Source: Verrucomicrobiia bacterium (GTDB lineage Bacteria; Verrucomicrobiota; Verrucomicrobiia; Opitutales; Cerasicoccaceae). From it: a stretch of 64,000 nt of DNA. Shown piece after piece: positions 6,974 through 41,348 of the stretch; position 1 is the stretch's first letter; each line of letters begins with the position of its first letter. A program made the translations under genes and the position numbers. Location: NCBI GenBank assembly GCA_030432235.1, contig JAUIHT010000003.1, forward strand, positions 496,001 to 560,000. The letters are read 5' to 3'. Under the pieces are notes generated by a model. That model made no database searches and was not told the origin of the DNA. It worked only from the letters and a program-made list of their open reading frames with translations.

Positions 6974-6991
6974 ATGTCACATTTATGTTGC
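6974..6991 (+). promoter_or_regulatory. Pho-box-like 11-bp direct repeat
   Basis: ATGTCAC at 6974 and ATGTTGC at 6985 are exactly 11 bp apart with ATTT between, the phasing of PhoB half-sites. They lie 17-34 bp upstream of the histone-like gene. A PhoB/PhoR-like pair is encoded at 19852-21914. Assignment is by pattern only. Confidence 0.35.
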
Positions 6992-7007
6992 GATAACAGG
7001 TAGCCCC

Positions 7008-7487
7008 ATGAAAAAACTTAAAAAAGACGAACTGTCCAAAAGCGTTAAGAAGTTTCTCCGCAAGAAGAAGCTGAAGGCCTCCGAGTACGAGCACGAGTTT
7101 GTAGACAAAACGTGCGCCTTGCTCACGACCGCATTCAACAAGTCCTACGATGCCACCAGCAGCGCCTTGGGAAGCATTGAGGAACAGATCGGCAAGGTTC
7201 ACGACGCTATCTTCCGGGAAGAGCAGGAAGCGGCCAAAGCCAGTTCGAAGGGCAAGGCTTCTTCGAAGAAAGCCGGTAAGAAGGGCGCATCCAAAAAGTC
7301 GAAGAAGCCGACCACCAAGAAAGCAGCTTCCAAGCCGGTGAAAAAGAAGACCGCTACGAAGAAAGCGCCTGCCAAGAAGTCGACCGCCAAAGCGGTGAAG
7401 AAGGCAGCGCCAAAGAAAAAGGCAGCTAAGCGCGTCGCCAAGAAGACCACCCGGAAAGCACCCGCGAAAAAGACCTCCGCCGAATAA
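7008..7487 (+). CDS. Histone H1-like Lys/Ala-rich DNA-binding protein
   Basis: A 159-residue protein in two parts. Residues 1-75 form a charged helical domain (KKDELSKSVKKFLRKKKLKASEYEHEFVDKT and following). Residues from about 78 to the end are a low-complexity Lys/Ala/Thr/Pro tail with repeated KKA, KKAPAKK and KKKTATKK blocks, as in eukaryotic H1 tails and bacterial AlgP/Hc1-like proteins. The expected role is nucleoid compaction or non-specific nucleic-acid binding through the tail. It has its own promoter region with a Pho-box-like repeat and stands convergent to the CAP-protein gene, with a 21-bp gap. Confidence 0.75.
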   Translation: MKKLKKDELSKSVKKFLRKKKLKASEYEHEFVDKTCALLTTAFNKSYDATSSALGSIEEQIGKVHDAIFREEQEAAKASSKGKASSKKAGKKGASKKSKKPTTKKAASKPVKKKTATKKAPAKKSTAKAVKKAAPKKKAAKRVAKKTTRKAPAKKTSAE

Positions 7488-19283: not shown

Positions 19284-19895
19284 TTAGCGCCGTTTGCTGA
19301 CTAAAGACTGCCAGTCGTCCATCAGGTCCTGGAAGAAGCTGCGTTCCTCGAAGGGCCAAGGCTCGTCGGTGATTTCCCAGTCGGGGTGCTCCGTGAGAAT
19401 TTCGCGGGTCCATTCAAAGTACTCCTCGTGATCGGTACGAAAGAAAAAACGTGCCTCGGGCGTGGCATGCTGTGCCAGGTCAGCGAGGAACCCGGGTTGC
19501 ACCATGCGATTCTTATGGTGGCGCTTTTTTGGCCAGGGATCGGGAAAGAGCATGAAGATTTTTTCCAGGCGCACAGGTTCCGGCAGCGCCTCGAGCAGCT
19601 CGCGGGCTTCAGCCTTGAGGAAACGCAGATGCGCCAAGCCGCGTTTTTCGGCCTTGGCAGAGGCCTTGGCAATACGCTTTGTCACCAGATCGACGCCCAG
19701 GCAGGTTTCCTGAGGATAGGCTTGTGCGTAGCCCGTCAGGTAGTGCCCGTGGCCGCAACCCAGCTCCAACGTGATGGCGATGGGCTCCGGAAACAGCTTT
19801 GCGCAGGTTTCACGCAGGGCGGCTTGGCGTTCTTGGATGTGCCGCAGGTAATCAGGCAGGCTGGGTGGTGGCGTCTCGGGATTGGGCGCTGTCAT
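19284..19895 (-). CDS. trmB: tRNA (guanine-N7)-methyltransferase
   Basis: A 203-residue SAM-dependent enzyme that makes m7G46 in tRNA. Motifs are SAM loop LELGCGHGHYLTGYA, GVDLVTKRIAKA and the catalytic/tRNA motif IFMLFPDPWPKKRHHKNRMVQPGFL. The C-terminal part includes RTDHEEYFEW. The start at 19895 (MTAPNPETP) overlaps the end of the upstream kinase gene by 44 bp. An alternative ATG at 19904 adds three residues. Confidence 0.92.
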   Translation of the reverse strand: MTAPNPETPPPSLPDYLRHIQERQAALRETCAKLFPEPIAITLELGCGHGHYLTGYAQAYPQETCLGVDLVTKRIAKASAKAEKRGLAHLRFLKAEARELLEALPEPVRLEKIFMLFPDPWPKKRHHKNRMVQPGFLADLAQHATPEARFFFRTDHEEYFEWTREILTEHPDWEITDEPWPFEERSFFQDLMDDWQSLVSKRR

Positions 19896-21177
19896 CTTCC
19901 GGCTCATCGTCGGGAGAGATATAGGGGATGTCGATCTCGATCCGCGTCCCCTCCCCTGGCGCACTGACGGCATGCACAGTGCCGCCGTGCAGCTGCACGA
20001 TGTGCTTGACGATGCTCAAGCCCAGCCCGGTGCCACCGGATTCACGCGAGCGACCCTTGTCCACTCGGTAAAAGCGCTCGAAGATATGCTCCACGTCATC
20101 CTCGGGAATGCCACAGCCGTTGTCCTGCACGGTGATGTAAAGGTGGTCGCCGTCCCGCCGGGTGCTGATGCAGAGGCAATCGAAGCCCTTGGCATAGCGG
20201 ATGGTGTTGTCGAGCAGGTTCTGGAATACCTGGCTGATCTTGACCGGGTCGACCATGGCCTCGTCCGAAGTTTCGTCGAGTTCCAGGCAGACTTCCGCAA
20301 CGCCGGTGCCGATGCGCTGCTGGAAGTTCTCCACCGCGTCTCCGATAATCTTTTTGAGCGAGGCCGGCTGGCGATACAGACTTTCGGTTTCCCACTCGAG
20401 CCGGGAAAGGGCCAGCAGGTCCTCCAGCAGCAGGTGCAGCCGGGCTACGTTCTTATGGATTTTCTCCAGGAAGCGCTTGCGATCAGCATCGGTAAGCTGG
20501 TCAAAGTCTTCCAGGAGCGTGTCGGAGTAGCCCTTGATGATGGTCACCGGCGTACGCAGCTCGTGCGAGACATTGGCCACGAATTCCTTGCGCACTCCCT
20601 CGAGGCGCTTGAGGTTGCTGACGTCGTGCAAAACGAAGAGCGTGAGATCCCGCGAGGTGTCGCCGGAGTCCGGAATGCGCGCCCCGGCCACCTCGAGAAA
20701 GAGGGTCTGGCGGCCGCTGAGCATTTCGATCTGGCCGCGCCCGGGGTTTTCCTCGTAGCGGATTTTGCGCATGAACTCGAGGAACTTGGAGCTCTGGATG
20801 ACGCTTTCGATCTTCTGCCCTTCCAGCGGACCGGTGATGCCGAAGAGTCCGCGCGCAGCGGGATTGGCCAGGTAAAGACGACCTGAGTTGTCCACCACGA
20901 TAACGGCCTCGGTGAGGTTGCCCAGGGTGATTTCCAACTGTCGTAAGTAGCTCTGTTCCTGACGGTTAGACTTCTCTCGCTCCGCCGACATGCGGTTGTA
21001 AATTTGGCTCAGCCGCTCCAGATGATAGCGCCGGCCCCAGTCCGCCTCGATATCGTAGAGGAATGCCTTGCCGGACTCCGCCGCGTCGGCCAGGCGGCTT
21101 AACGTGTTGCGCAAGTAGCGCAGCCGCAGCCAAAGCCAGAGTGCGATGAAGAATAGGACTGCCGCGATCAGCAACAT
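19852..21177 (-). CDS. phoR: PhoR-like sensor histidine kinase
   Basis: A 441-residue kinase. One N-terminal membrane helix (LLIAAVLFFIALWLWLRL) is followed directly by a HAMP-less linker, a PAS domain (about residues 85-190, ITLGNLTEAVIVVDNSGRLYLANPAA) and the H-box FVANVSHELRTPVTIIKGYSD with His205. The N, G1 and G2 boxes read FQNLLDNTIRYAKG, VQDNGCGIPEDD and GGTGLGLSIVKHIVQLHGG. One membrane span and no large periplasmic domain is the PhoR layout, where phosphate is sensed via the Pst transporter and PhoU. It is 41 bp after the phoB-like gene. No pst or phoU gene lies in the window, so the PhoR name rests on architecture. Confidence 0.75.
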   Translation of the reverse strand: MLLIAAVLFFIALWLWLRLRYLRNTLSRLADAAESGKAFLYDIEADWGRRYHLERLSQIYNRMSAEREKSNRQEQSYLRQLEITLGNLTEAVIVVDNSGRLYLANPAARGLFGITGPLEGQKIESVIQSSKFLEFMRKIRYEENPGRGQIEMLSGRQTLFLEVAGARIPDSGDTSRDLTLFVLHDVSNLKRLEGVRKEFVANVSHELRTPVTIIKGYSDTLLEDFDQLTDADRKRFLEKIHKNVARLHLLLEDLLALSRLEWETESLYRQPASLKKIIGDAVENFQQRIGTGVAEVCLELDETSDEAMVDPVKISQVFQNLLDNTIRYAKGFDCLCISTRRDGDHLYITVQDNGCGIPEDDVEHIFERFYRVDKGRSRESGGTGLGLSIVKHIVQLHGGTVHAVSAPGEGTRIEIDIPYISPDDEPEDDSAQSRDATTQPA

Positions 21178-21218: not shown

Positions 21219-21914
21219 CTAATTGTCGTCCACGACGCGATAGCCGACGCCACGCACTGTCTGTATGACGCTGGCGTCCGGCCCGAGCTTCTCGCGCAGG
21301 CGCCGGATATGGGTGTCCACGGTGCGGGTTTCGATGTCCGCCTCGTAGTTCCAGACGTTGACCAGAAGGTTTTCCCGGCTCTGCACGCGGCCTTTGCGCT
21401 CGACCAGCAGGCGCAGGAGCTTGAACTCGGTTGCGGTGAGGTCGATTTCGTTGCCGGCAACGGTCAGGCGATGCTTGTCGATATCGATAACGACACGGCC
21501 GATGACGAGGGTCTTGGCCTCCTCCTCGCCTTCCGAGGGGCGCTGCAGCCGCTTGAAAAGGGCTTGTATGCGCAGCATGAGCTCGCGTGAGTCGAACGGC
21601 TTGCAGATATAGTCGTCGGCTCCGGTTTCGAAGCCCTTGATGCGGTCGTCCGGCTCGCCTCGGGCGGTCAGGAAGATGATGGGAATTCCCTTCATGATGG
21701 GGTCCGAACGCAGCATGCGGCAGATTTGGATGCCGTTGAGCTCGGGCATCATAATATCGAGAATCACCAGGTCCGGGTGGAATTGGCGCGCCTCGCCCAT
21801 GATAAGTAGTGGGTCATTGATGACGGACACATCGTAGCCTTCCTGGCGGAGCTTGTAGTCCAGCAGTTCGGTTACGTCGGGCTCGTCATCGACCACGAGC
21901 ACTTTTTTTTCCAT
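21219..21914 (-). CDS. phoB: PhoB-like OmpR-family response regulator
   Basis: A 231-residue regulator. The receiver domain starts at the ATG at 21914 (MEKKVLVVDDEPDV). The phosphoacceptor is Asp53 (LVILDIMMPELNG) and the conserved lysine lies in DDYICKPFDS. The C-terminal winged helix has GNEIDLTATEFKLLRLLVERKGRVQSRENLL and DTHIRRLREKLG. In E. coli PhoB binds 11-bp direct repeats with TGTCA cores. Similar repeats occur in this window at 6974, 22099 and 39740. It is the first gene of a phoB-phoR-trmB cluster. Confidence 0.8.
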   Translation of the reverse strand: MEKKVLVVDDEPDVTELLDYKLRQEGYDVSVINDPLLIMGEARQFHPDLVILDIMMPELNGIQICRMLRSDPIMKGIPIIFLTARGEPDDRIKGFETGADDYICKPFDSRELMLRIQALFKRLQRPSEGEEEAKTLVIGRVVIDIDKHRLTVAGNEIDLTATEFKLLRLLVERKGRVQSRENLLVNVWNYEADIETRTVDTHIRRLREKLGPDASVIQTVRGVGYRVVDDN

Positions 21915-22098
21915 TTGCGCGATTGTAGCCATGCAAGGCGGAAGATTGAGAAGTGGATATCCCTTTGCCAATGATCAAAATAGGGGGCCAAGAGTATATT
22001 TTCAAGTAAGAAATAGTGTTTCAAACACGCAATGCGTTGAACATCAGCGACTTAAAATGTAACAATTGAGTTATTGACAAACGGCAAATGTATGGCCC

Positions 22099-22116
22099 GT
22101 CACGCAAATGTTACAA
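22099..22116 (-). promoter_or_regulatory. Possible Pho-box-like repeat upstream of phoB
   Basis: On the minus strand TTGTAAC (22116-22110) and GCGTGAC (22105-22099) are 11 bp apart with ATTT between. They overlap the mnmG stop and lie about 190 bp upstream of phoB. A TGTTACA/TGTAACA motif also occurs at 22058. The 196-bp spacer (21915-22110) holds no gene. Weak evidence for autoregulation. Confidence 0.25.
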
Positions 22117-37572: not shown

Positions 37573-39657
37573 CTAATCCCACAGATTCAAATCGTGGCAG
37601 GCGGCGATAAACTCGCTGCAGGACCAGGCCTGGTAGGCTTTGCCCATGGGTTTGCCGGTGATACCGTGGGCCCATTCGTTAAACTCCCACTCGTGATTGA
37701 CCCCGGCGCGGTTGACTTCGGCGAGCTTGACCAATTGCTCGCAGGCCAAGTCGTGCAGGCCGAGGCGTTTTAAAAAGCGAACCCAGATGCCGCCGACGAA
37801 GGGCCAGATACCGCCGTTGTGGTAGTGGTTGGGCAAGTTGAGCAGGTTGACGGTGTAGTAGCTCTTCCAGTTGGGGTCTCCAGCCTGCACGACGGGGTAG
37901 AGGTTTCTGGCGGGGAAGGGGTCGGCCACGCCGGAGCCCCACATGAAGCGGAAGGCGGTCTCCGCGCGTTCATGATCGAGCACGTTGAAGAGGGACGCGA
38001 GGCAGTTGCCAAAAACGTCGCAGCGCCAGTCGTGGTCGAAGGGCGTGATTTGCGCGAGCAGGTAGCTGGTGTCGCCCATGCCGAGCTGGGAGTCGGCAAA
38101 GGTGTAGTGCAGCTCGCCGGCGTGATGGATAGACGGCCAGAAGCTGCGCAGGATGGCTTTTTTGATCGTCCCGGCCCAACGGAGGTAATCCCCGGCCCGG
38201 CGCCAGTCCCCCAGCGTTTCCAGGAGGCGGCCGAAGGCGATGTTGGCGCGGAACCAGATGACCTCGTCCGCCATAACGTGGTAGCTGCGGCCGAAGAGGT
38301 CGGTCCAGTCCCCGGCTTCGGGGATTTCCAGCAGGGCGTCGTTGTTGGAGTCGTGGGCGCTTAGCCAGTCCATGACCTTTTGCAGGACGGGCATGTAGTC
38401 GCGCAGGAAGTCGTAGTCCTGCGTGGCACGAACGTACTCGGAGAAGGCGATGATGACCCACAGGCCGCTGTCGATGGAGCAGATGCCGCCGACCCCCGAG
38501 TAGTCCGGCTGGCCGGTGTCGAGGTTGACGTTGGCGGGGATTTGCCCGGGCGGGGAGACGCAGCCGAGCAGGGTCTCCAAGGTGGCGCGCTGGCAGGCAC
38601 GGATATCGGGGTCCTCCAGCTCGATGGTGCCGCAAATGGTGATGGAGCCGTCGCGAGCCCAGACGCTGCGGTAGTTCGCATCGGTGCCGGTGGTGATGTT
38701 GTCCTCCAGTGAGCAGGCGGAAAAGCCCTTCGGCGTGATGTTGCGACGGATGCCGGCTATAGCGGCCTCATAGGCTTCGCGGACGAAGCGCAGCTCGCGC
38801 TCGCCTAGCGGCGTGGTCTTTTCCTCGTGCAGCAGGTGCTGGATTTCCGGGGCGTGGTCCATGGCCTCGCCCTGTTGCGCTTCGATGATGTCCTTGATGA
38901 CGCCGAAGTGCTGCAAGCCCTCGAGGACGCCGTCGGCACAGAAGCCTTCCGCGCGGAAGACGCCGGGGTGGCCCACGGTACGCTCAAGCAGCTCGGGCTG
39001 GGCATTGCCCACGACGATGCCGCGCACGCCCTTTTTCAAAAACATGGCGGTGTCGTTACCGCTATCCCCGGCCACCAGGCATTGCTCACGGGGGATTTTC
39101 AAATGCTTCAAGAGCCAGGAAAGCGCGTTGCCCTTGTCCGCGAATTTCGGGAGCACATCCAGGTCGCGCCCGCTGGAGTAGACCACGTTGGTGGCCAAAC
39201 CGCGGGACTTGAGGGCATCCTCCAGGCGGGGCACATCCTGCTCCTCGTCGATATGGGCATACCAACTGGTCTTGTAGGGCGTCTGGTAATAGTCAGGCTG
39301 CTTGTGCACGTCAGGGAAGATCTCGCGAACGACCTCCTCGGCCGCGGCACGATCCCAGCCCTCGTCCAGCACCACGGAGAAATCCTTGATGTGTTGTTCC
39401 TTACGGAAGTCATACACCACCGTGCCGACTCCGCAGATGGCAAAGTCCGGTATGAGCAGGCGGCCCTTCTTGATCAGACGCTGCAAGTCGTCCAGCAGCC
39501 GACCGGTGTTATAAACCAGCAGCGGGCGTTTGCGTTTGGGCAGGGACTCCCAGGAGTGCTCGAACGCACGCGCGGCGTCGGCTTTTCCCAACAGGGTGCC
39601 GTCGATATCCGAACAGAAGACCTTGACCGGAGCAGAGTTAGCTTTCTCATCGCCCAT
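37573..39657 (-). CDS. HAD sugar-phosphate phosphatase fused to an (alpha/alpha)6 glycoside hydrolase
   Basis: A 694-residue fusion. N-terminal HAD-IIB part (1 to about 260) of the sucrose/mannosylfructose-phosphate phosphatase type: FCSDIDGTLL with Asp17/Asp19, VYNTGRLLDDLQRL, and VAGDSGNDTAMF near 196. C-terminal part (about 300-694) has (alpha/alpha)6 barrel motifs: YRSVWARDGSITICGTIEL, SIDSGLWVIIAFSEYV, EAGDWTDLFGRSYHVMADEVIWFRA and NHYHNGGIWPFVGGIWVRFL, as in GH15/GH100-like or amylo-alpha-1,6-glucosidase proteins. The likely substrate is the phosphorylated disaccharide made by the synthase at 39996. The hydrolase half might recycle the free sugar. ATG 39657 is chosen; 39693 would add 12 residues. 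Confidence 0.75.
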   Translation of the reverse strand: MGDEKANSAPVKVFCSDIDGTLLGKADAARAFEHSWESLPKRKRPLLVYNTGRLLDDLQRLIKKGRLLIPDFAICGVGTVVYDFRKEQHIKDFSVVLDEGWDRAAAEEVVREIFPDVHKQPDYYQTPYKTSWYAHIDEEQDVPRLEDALKSRGLATNVVYSSGRDLDVLPKFADKGNALSWLLKHLKIPREQCLVAGDSGNDTAMFLKKGVRGIVVGNAQPELLERTVGHPGVFRAEGFCADGVLEGLQHFGVIKDIIEAQQGEAMDHAPEIQHLLHEEKTTPLGERELRFVREAYEAAIAGIRRNITPKGFSACSLEDNITTGTDANYRSVWARDGSITICGTIELEDPDIRACQRATLETLLGCVSPPGQIPANVNLDTGQPDYSGVGGICSIDSGLWVIIAFSEYVRATQDYDFLRDYMPVLQKVMDWLSAHDSNNDALLEIPEAGDWTDLFGRSYHVMADEVIWFRANIAFGRLLETLGDWRRAGDYLRWAGTIKKAILRSFWPSIHHAGELHYTFADSQLGMGDTSYLLAQITPFDHDWRCDVFGNCLASLFNVLDHERAETAFRFMWGSGVADPFPARNLYPVVQAGDPNWKSYYTVNLLNLPNHYHNGGIWPFVGGIWVRFLKRLGLHDLACEQLVKLAEVNRAGVNHEWEFNEWAHGITGKPMGKAYQAWSCSEFIAACHDLNLWD

Positions 39658-39739
39658 GCGGGATACCGTTGGGGAAATCCCCCGGCAGGGCAAGCCCCGG
39701 TGGCAATTCTTGGAGTGGCAGACCTCGAAGGATTTACAA

Positions 39740-39779
39740 ATGTTACAAAAATATTGCTAGTTTGTTACGTTTGTGTTAC
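39740..39779 (+). promoter_or_regulatory. Four-unit 11-bp-phased direct repeat, Pho-box-like
   Basis: Units ATGTTAC (39740), ATATTGC (39751), TTGTTAC (39762) and GTGTTAC (39773) are spaced exactly 11 bp apart. PhoB sites are 11-bp direct repeats with TGTCA-like cores. The array lies 49 bp upstream of the 53-aa ORF and 83 bp upstream of the divergent phosphatase-hydrolase gene, so it could control both. Confidence 0.5.
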
Positions 39780-39827
39780 AGTGGTGTGTAATTAATCCGA
39801 TATTAGAGAAAAGAAAGGAGGTCCGAC

Positions 39828-39989
39828 ATGTCACCGAAATTCACACATATCCTGCACCGCTTGGGCGAAATACTGGGCTTCACGCTCATGGACACCGAGA
39901 CGGGCCACCGCATGATGCGCCAACTTTATCGCGTTGGCGAGTTTGACGACCACACTCCCGACAACACACCACCGCACGAACCGCGCTAG
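39828..39989 (+). CDS. Small protein of 53 aa, function unknown
   Basis: The ORF starts at the ATG at 39828 behind a near-perfect Shine-Dalgarno (AAAGGAGGT, 6 bases before the ATG), the best seen in this window. The product has a helical first half (SPKFTHILHRLGEILGF, TETGHRMMRQLYRVGEF) and an acidic/Pro-rich His-containing tail ending PPHEPR. No membrane span, no Cys and no known motif. It sits between the disaccharide genes, downstream of the four-unit Pho-box-like array. Its stop lies in a hairpin (GCTAGT/ACTAGC, 39985-40000) shared with the convergent synthase gene. The ribosome site and operator argue for a real gene. Confidence 0.6.
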   Translation: MSPKFTHILHRLGEILGFTLMDTETGHRMMRQLYRVGEFDDHTPDNTPPHEPR

Positions 39990-40000
39990 TAGAAACTAGC
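39985..40000. other. Hairpin over both convergent stop codons
   Basis: GCTAGT at 39985-39990 pairs with ACTAGC at 39995-40000 around AGAA. It covers the stop of the 53-aa gene (39987-39989) and of the synthase gene (39998-39996). It has no T tract, so termination is uncertain. Confidence 0.45.
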
Positions 40001-41348
40001 CGATATCAACGACCTCGATGCCGGGCGAAATACGCCCTTCGACTGCCTTGATCGTTTGCTGGGCGATGCCGGTCCAAGTGAAGAGGCTGCGTACCTTGTG
40101 CGAGCCGTTGACCGCCAGGCGCCGGTGAATGGCCGGATGGCGCAAGGCCTTGAGGATGGTGTAGCCGTAGTCCTGCGGGTCGAAGCTGTCCGCGTAAAGC
40201 GCATCGTTGCCGTAGGTGAGCGTACGGTAGAGGCCGCCGTGGGTAGTAACGACGGTAGGCGTACCGCAGGCCATGGCCTCAATGGCGGTCATGCCGAAGG
40301 GCTCATAGCGGCTGGGCAGGCAAAAAATGTCGGCGGCCCGATAGAAGTCCGGCATATCCGGATCGTCGAGTGAACCGCTCAAGATGAGCCTATCCGCAAT
40401 GCCGAGGGATTTGGCCTTGTCGACGATCTCCTGCAACATCGGGTCCTCGGTCGTCTGCTCGGACTCCGTGCCGACGGCCAGGCGGAGCACGGCGCGCTCG
40501 TCGTTTTTGGCCACCACGGCAAAGGCATCCACCAACAGGTCGAAGCCTTTGTTACGGGAAAGACGCCCGATGCTGGCCACCACCTTGGCCTCCGCCGGGT
40601 TGCCGAGGGATTCGCGTATGGACATGCGGGTGGCATCGCTGACGGGATAGAAGCGGTTGTCATCGTAGCCGGGGGGAATCATGCGCACCTTGTCCGGCGG
40701 CACATGGTAGTCGCGTTTGAGCATGTCCAGCTGAATGGGGGACGTGGCGATGAGCAAATCGCACTCACGGTAGAGGGTGGTCTCGTGGTGGATGCGTCGG
40801 CTGAAGTTGTAGGTTTTTTCGAGCCGCTCATCGTCGTCGGGGTAGTCCTCGCGCATCTTGTTCTGCTTCCAGGCACCCAGTGAGTGGGGCGTGTGCAGGT
40901 GCGGCACATCCAAAGACTCGGCCATGTTCTGCCCGGCCAGTCCGGCGTCCCAGTAATGCGAATTGATGAACTGGTACTTGAAGCGCTTCTTGTTGATGTA
41001 GCGCAGCGCGTTTTCGGTCCATTCCGGCAGCTTTTTGTACAGGTATTCCTTGGGGATGAACTCCTTGCCTCCACAGGGCATGCGGATGATCTGCACGTGA
41101 TCGTCGACCTTCTCGAGTTCCTTCTGGCCCTCGAAGCGGCGTGTCCAGATGTCCACCTCGTAACCCAGTTGGGCCAGTTTTTTGGACAATTCCACGACGA
41201 AAACCACTTGCCCGCCGGTATCCGGCTGGCCCAGGGGCGGCTCCGCGGCCACGTAGCCGTGCGTGGAAACCATGGCAATGCGCTCCCGGCGACGGGAGAC
41301 GCGGCGTTTTTTAACTTCAGGCGGCTTCAGATAGGTATCTTTCGGCAT
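39996..41348 (-). CDS. GT4 disaccharide-phosphate synthase, mannosylfructose/sucrose-phosphate synthase type
   Basis: A 450-residue GT-B glycosyltransferase. N-terminal half: IAMVSTHGYVAAEPPLGQPDTGGQVVFVVELSKKL, with the GGQ nucleotide-sugar loop, and SHYWDAGLAGQNMAE then PHLHTPHSLGAWK. C-terminal half: IPPGYDDNRFYPVSDATR, VVASIGRLSRNKGFDLL and the EX7E motif SRYEPFGMTAIEAMACGTPTVV. By memory the pattern is closer to mannosylfructose-phosphate synthase of Agrobacterium (MfpsA) than to plant SPS. It transfers mannose or glucose to fructose-6-phosphate. The phosphatase that would act next is fused to a hydrolase at 37573. Such disaccharides serve as osmolytes. Confidence 0.8.
   Translation of the reverse strand: MPKDTYLKPPEVKKRRVSRRRERIAMVSTHGYVAAEPPLGQPDTGGQVVFVVELSKKLAQLGYEVDIWTRRFEGQKELEKVDDHVQIIRMPCGGKEFIPKEYLYKKLPEWTENALRYINKKRFKYQFINSHYWDAGLAGQNMAESLDVPHLHTPHSLGAWKQNKMREDYPDDDERLEKTYNFSRRIHHETTLYRECDLLIATSPIQLDMLKRDYHVPPDKVRMIPPGYDDNRFYPVSDATRMSIRESLGNPAEAKVVASIGRLSRNKGFDLLVDAFAVVAKNDERAVLRLAVGTESEQTTEDPMLQEIVDKAKSLGIADRLILSGSLDDPDMPDFYRAADIFCLPSRYEPFGMTAIEAMACGTPTVVTTHGGLYRTLTYGNDALYADSFDPQDYGYTILKALRHPAIHRRLAVNGSHKVRSLFTWTGIAQQTIKAVEGRISPGIEVVDIG

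Follow-up and report, generated by a model that had tools for sequence, protein, structure and literature searches.

A Pho-box-like array precedes a conserved small-protein gene in an Opitutales genome

The stretch of DNA analysed here, the window, comprises 64,000 nucleotides and carries on its plus strand an open reading frame for a 53-amino-acid protein (39828 to 39989). This frame is flanked by a divergent gene for a sucrose-6F-phosphate phosphatase/GH100-like fusion (37573 to 39657, minus strand) and a convergent gene for a GT4 sucrose-synthase-like glycosyltransferase (39996 to 41348, minus strand). The initial annotation had placed the short frame between two disaccharide genes. Sucrose-related genes do flank it; however, both are encoded on the opposite strand and neither is part of the unit described here.

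Upstream of the short frame we found a Pho-box-like array at 39741 to 39779 on the plus strand, composed of TGTTAC at 39741, TATTGC at 39752, TGTTAC at 39763 and TGTTAC at 39774. Since the second unit reads TATTGC we refer to the units as TGTTAC-like. The unit starts are spaced exactly 11 bp apart, and the array thus contains the two or more 11-bp direct repeat units of a Pho box. When simply scored for matches to four TGTTAC units, the array reaches 22 of 24, and no unrelated place in the window exceeds 15. The four-unit pattern is found only once in the window and was absent from 100 dinucleotide shuffles, even when three mismatches were allowed. These scores confirm what had been reported from the first reading, namely four NTGTTAC-like units in exact 11-bp phase. 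Directly 5' of the first unit is TTTACA (39733 to 39738, plus strand), a presumed outer element that is identical in a genome of the sister genus (G001).

The probable -10 element, TGTAAT (39787 to 39792, plus strand), is found between the array and the ORF, in a block, GGTGTRTARTNATCC, that is conserved in the sister genus, where the element reads TATAGT. A consensus scan upstream of this -10 found neither an ordinary sigma-70 promoter nor a recognisable -35 hexamer. A Pho box is expected about 10 bp from the -10 and without a good -35; here the -35 is missing and the last array unit lies 7 bp from the -10, compared with 8 bp in the sister genus and 10 bp at pstS. The Shine-Dalgarno sequence AAAGGAGGT (39814 to 39822, plus strand) is located 5 nt before the ATG. 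As the initial annotation remarked, it stands out, being the sole exact copy in the window. With 0.42 copies expected by chance this match alone says little, but the sequence is conserved in the homologue.

Among ten genomes of the family, the 53-amino-acid protein is present in its own genome and in G001 only. The G001 homologue is 40-44% identical (E value of 3e-7, with 44% identity over 43 residues), and identity at codon positions 1, 2 and 3 is 58, 68 and 36%, a pattern which, on this alignment, is as expected for a constrained protein. The homologous gene has birA on one side and an aldo-keto reductase gene on the other, both names read from translations, and no sucrose genes nearby. The reading frame, start and Shine-Dalgarno sequence are conserved, as is a 25-bp block, TTTACAAATGTTACAAAAATRTTGC (39733 to 39757), at the upstream end of the promoter. 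The upstream DNA of G001 also has the -10 block and the Shine-Dalgarno sequence AAAGGAGGTCC in common with the window, and its array spans about one helical turn less. Since promoter and ORF are conserved together at a non-syntenic locus, we consider the array part of the promoter of the small gene. Because the sister genus has a similar protein behind the same operator at an unrelated locus, the ORF at 39828 to 39989 is, by this comparative evidence, a real and conserved gene.

A profile search extended the family to short TETKWGHRVLDQIFREGKF-type ORFs in other Opitutales families. These distant members come from four genomes of one genus, one genome of another family and one Cephaloticoccus MAG (GTDB contigs), and the named records among the family matches are Opitutales, Puniceicoccales, Cephaloticoccus and Verrucomicrobia MAGs. 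The pattern G-x-R-x3-Q-x2-R-x3-F, by which we define the family, is invariant in the eight aligned members. The homologues and the conservation of ORF and array that the initial annotation had proposed to look for are thus found in the sister genus, and the ORF in further Opitutales families. Scanning the GTDB contigs with a profile from the two-sequence alignment returned nothing; the same scan with the distant members included gave five loci, four of them in genomes already found. Weak HMM matches at six further loci (L106, L107, L021, L115, L116 and L118) were rejected as chance, as they lacked the pattern or lay inside long ORFs.

The 53-amino-acid peptide matched no family in Pfam, NCBIfam, PHROGs or the PDB sequences. 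Up to an E value of 10, Pfam gave only a chance match to Phage_ORF5, and the DUF1127 model was not matched. The protein has no transmembrane segment (highest 19-residue hydropathy mean 0.57). Its AlphaFold model (pLDDT 62) is mostly helical at low confidence and was too poor for a fold search.

The window also encodes the PhoB/PhoR-like pair noted previously, a PhoB-like response regulator (21219 to 21971) with Response_reg and Trans_reg_C domains and a PhoR/PnpS-like sensor kinase (19852 to 21177), both on the minus strand. The best NCBIfam model for the regulator, our presumed activator, is TIGR02154 PhoB, at 239 bits versus an equivalog cut-off of 296, hence our use of PhoB-like. For the kinase the best models are PnpS (318 versus a cut-off of 400 bits) and PhoR (276 versus 334). 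Among PDB sequences the regulator is related to members of the OmpR family, MtrA and RegX3 for example. The phoB-like gene is itself preceded by a Pho box, CGTCACGCAAATGTTAC (22098 to 22114, plus strand).

We then collected pst operons of relatives and the DNA upstream of their pstS genes. The 15 pstS upstream regions contained four GTNAC pairs at 11-bp spacing versus 0.05 expected (0 of 2000 shuffles); among spacings of 6 to 30 bp, more than one pair was otherwise seen only at 20 (two pairs) and 26 (three). In the genome that contains the window, YGTHACN5YGTHAC has 22 matches, some counted on both strands, versus 14 for a reversed-pattern control. These include the pstS promoter CGTCACGAAATTGTAAC (C42:441056), the phoB-like promoter (22098), the array itself, a CHAD locus (C42:330929) and a DUF3450/ExbB operon (C37:805280), so that pst genes and phoB of one genome carry the same motif as the array. 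The letter H was chosen after pstS had been seen, and the pstS site of this genome is therefore not an independent match, while the phoB site is. The syntenic CYTH-CHAD locus and DUF3450/ExbB operon of G001 likewise carry arrays.

We also searched ten genomes for exact copies of TGTTACN5TGTTAC, a pattern derived solely from the window array. The matches include the pstS promoter of one relative (G009) and the promoter of a Porin_O_P gene, encoding a phosphate-selective porin, of another (G003). This search gave 10 matches versus 6 for a reversed-pattern control. Since genome-wide counts just slightly exceed controls, isolated box sites are often due to chance, and our argument rests on the identity of the boxed genes and not on the counts. 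A box matrix from which both the array and the phoB box had been left out nevertheless ranked the array first in the 64 kb (21.8), followed by the phoB box (19.5) and a next site at 14.3. This ranking is not fully independent because several of the matrix sites were found with the array's own unit. That exact double sites are all intergenic was considered as proof and carries less weight, since 46% of single TGTTAC words in the DNA examined already lie outside long ORFs.

Several other sites with this motif were observed. The DUF3450/ExbB/ExbD/TonB-like operon has phased Pho-like boxes in two genera (L180 3396-7238; L181 8231-12103), and from these boxes the TonB-type system is possibly under phosphate control. 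A weaker Pho-box-like site, ATGTCACATTTATGTTGCGATAA, is present at 6974 to 6996 of the window directly 5' of a lysine-rich histone-like ORF (7008 to 7487). The sole exact TGTTACN5TGTTAC site in the genome besides the array (L095 3908-4054; C7:104910-105053, minus strand) precedes a 48-amino-acid ORF with one hydrophobic helix, beginning MAAEIIIILYVAILALLGSVFLLDFMWSRK, and its units and -10 are laid out as at the array. This ORF has no homologue in the ten family genomes or in the 53-amino-acid family. At a G001 locus (L098 4740-4910) phased TGTTAC units precede no long ORF; instead a G+C-rich hairpin and a run of T follow, and the locus possibly encodes a Pho-controlled small RNA.

Most distant members of the small-protein family have no Pho box, their matrix scores staying below 7. 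Four of them, all from one genus (L123, L124, L125 and L121), lie directly upstream of ychF, a gene for a translation-linked ATPase, on the same strand. Because boxes are mostly missing from distant members, Pho control appears to be a trait of some lineages and not of the whole protein family. At the homologue in one genome (G521; L121, about 2560-2610) three TGTNAC units in phase overlap both the -10 and the start codon, with a matrix score of 19.3 versus 13.7 for the 99th percentile of random 200-mers. This arrangement suggests that Pho control there, if the units are real, would be repression.

Our preferred reading is that the array is a four-unit Pho box that places a translated gene under Pho control. 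We give this a probability of about 0.78, a figure that excludes any modulator role of the protein. Since the same box precedes phosphate-uptake and regulator genes, production of the 53-amino-acid protein is very probably a reaction to phosphate exhaustion. Judged from the DNA, the protein very probably adds a new small member to a Pho regulon, a well-known response. Under low phosphate the PhoR-like kinase would phosphorylate the PhoB-like regulator encoded in the same window. PhoB-like dimers would line up head to tail on the 11-bp direct repeats, along one face of the DNA, and the bound regulator would stand in for the missing -35 contact and bring in RNA polymerase at the -10 near 39787. 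From a short transcript with a near-perfect Shine-Dalgarno sequence, a soluble, mostly helical protein of 53 amino acids would then be translated. We infer that PhoB is the binder, that binding activates the gene and that the product is a modulator; our best guess is that it binds a protein partner. It is possible, though unlikely, that the protein represents an undescribed Opitutales small-protein family which the Pho regulon captured in some lineages and which either regulates phosphate signalling by feedback or links phosphate starvation to some other basic process.

A specific form of our preferred reading, which does not compete with Pho control, is that the small protein feeds back on phosphate signalling by binding the PhoR-like kinase. 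Expression under PhoB would close a loop, and DUF1127 proteins of similar size act in this way in Agrobacterium and E. coli (PMC12501420). We regard this form as rather doubtful, as a sequence relation to DUF1127 is absent, most distant members are without Pho boxes and several adjoin ychF instead. An improbable alternative assigns the array to another response regulator of the OmpR family whose operators share the 11-bp phasing, perhaps one for envelope or osmotic stress; the gene would then belong to a different regulon. PhoB is not the only OmpR-family regulator that can use direct repeats in 11-bp phase. The small-protein promoters are also TGTTAC-rich, while pstS units are more often CGTMAC, they stand at a slightly different distance from the -10, and the phoB-like protein falls short of the NCBIfam PhoB cut-off. 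However, the motif is shared by pstS in several genomes, the phoB-like gene, the phosphate-selective porin gene and the CYTH/CHAD (polyphosphate-type) locus. The PhoB-type operator reading, a guess when the window was initially annotated, gains support from these phosphate-linked loci.

Control of the divergent sucrose-phosphate phosphatase/invertase gene by the array, which would link phosphate starvation to sucrose metabolism, is very unlikely. In the sister genus the array and ORF are located elsewhere, between birA and the aldo-keto reductase gene. The conserved -10 block faces the ORF, and no evident counterpart lies towards the sucrose gene at the usual distance. In favour of such control, the array lies about 84 bp upstream of the sucrose gene, and its GTNAC units are palindromic and hence readable from either side. 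The suggested phosphate-starvation link to the sugar pathway lacks support, since G001 keeps promoter and ORF without sucrose genes and the strand is opposite here. Slightly less credible still is that the transcript acts as a small RNA in which the ORF is incidental. The predicted transcript is short, and similar arrays in other genomes (L098, L100) precede stretches without an evident ORF, but the frame, start and Shine-Dalgarno sequence are conserved, third codon positions are less conserved than second positions (36% versus 68% identical), and Rfam gave no match in the window.

Pho boxes are established as 11-nt direct repeats and the mechanism of activation by PhoB is known for E. coli (PMC4415409). 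Our search, which covered mainly openly available literature, found no Pho box or Pho-controlled small protein in Verrucomicrobia. The analysis provides a testable Pho-box motif ([CT]GTNAC in 11-bp phase) and a first candidate Pho-regulon list for a verrucomicrobial family, and adds an unnamed small-protein family in which the promoter changed between lineages and the protein persisted. Like the E. coli-type Pho regulon, the proposed system has 11-bp direct repeats with a GTNAC-like core in place of the -35, boxes at pstS and at the regulator gene, and a PhoB/PhoR-like pair in the genome. It differs in its core, [CT]GTNAC versus CTGTCAT, in having up to four units, and in a -10 spacing at the small-protein gene of 7-8 bp versus 10. 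Small DUF1127 proteins can act on PhoR (PMC12501420), and like these (YjiS and the Agrobacterium SDPs) the protein has about 50 amino acids and is tied to phosphate metabolism. Unlike them it has no detectable sequence similarity to DUF1127, and whereas DUF1127 regulates PhoR, here it is control by PhoB that the evidence supports.
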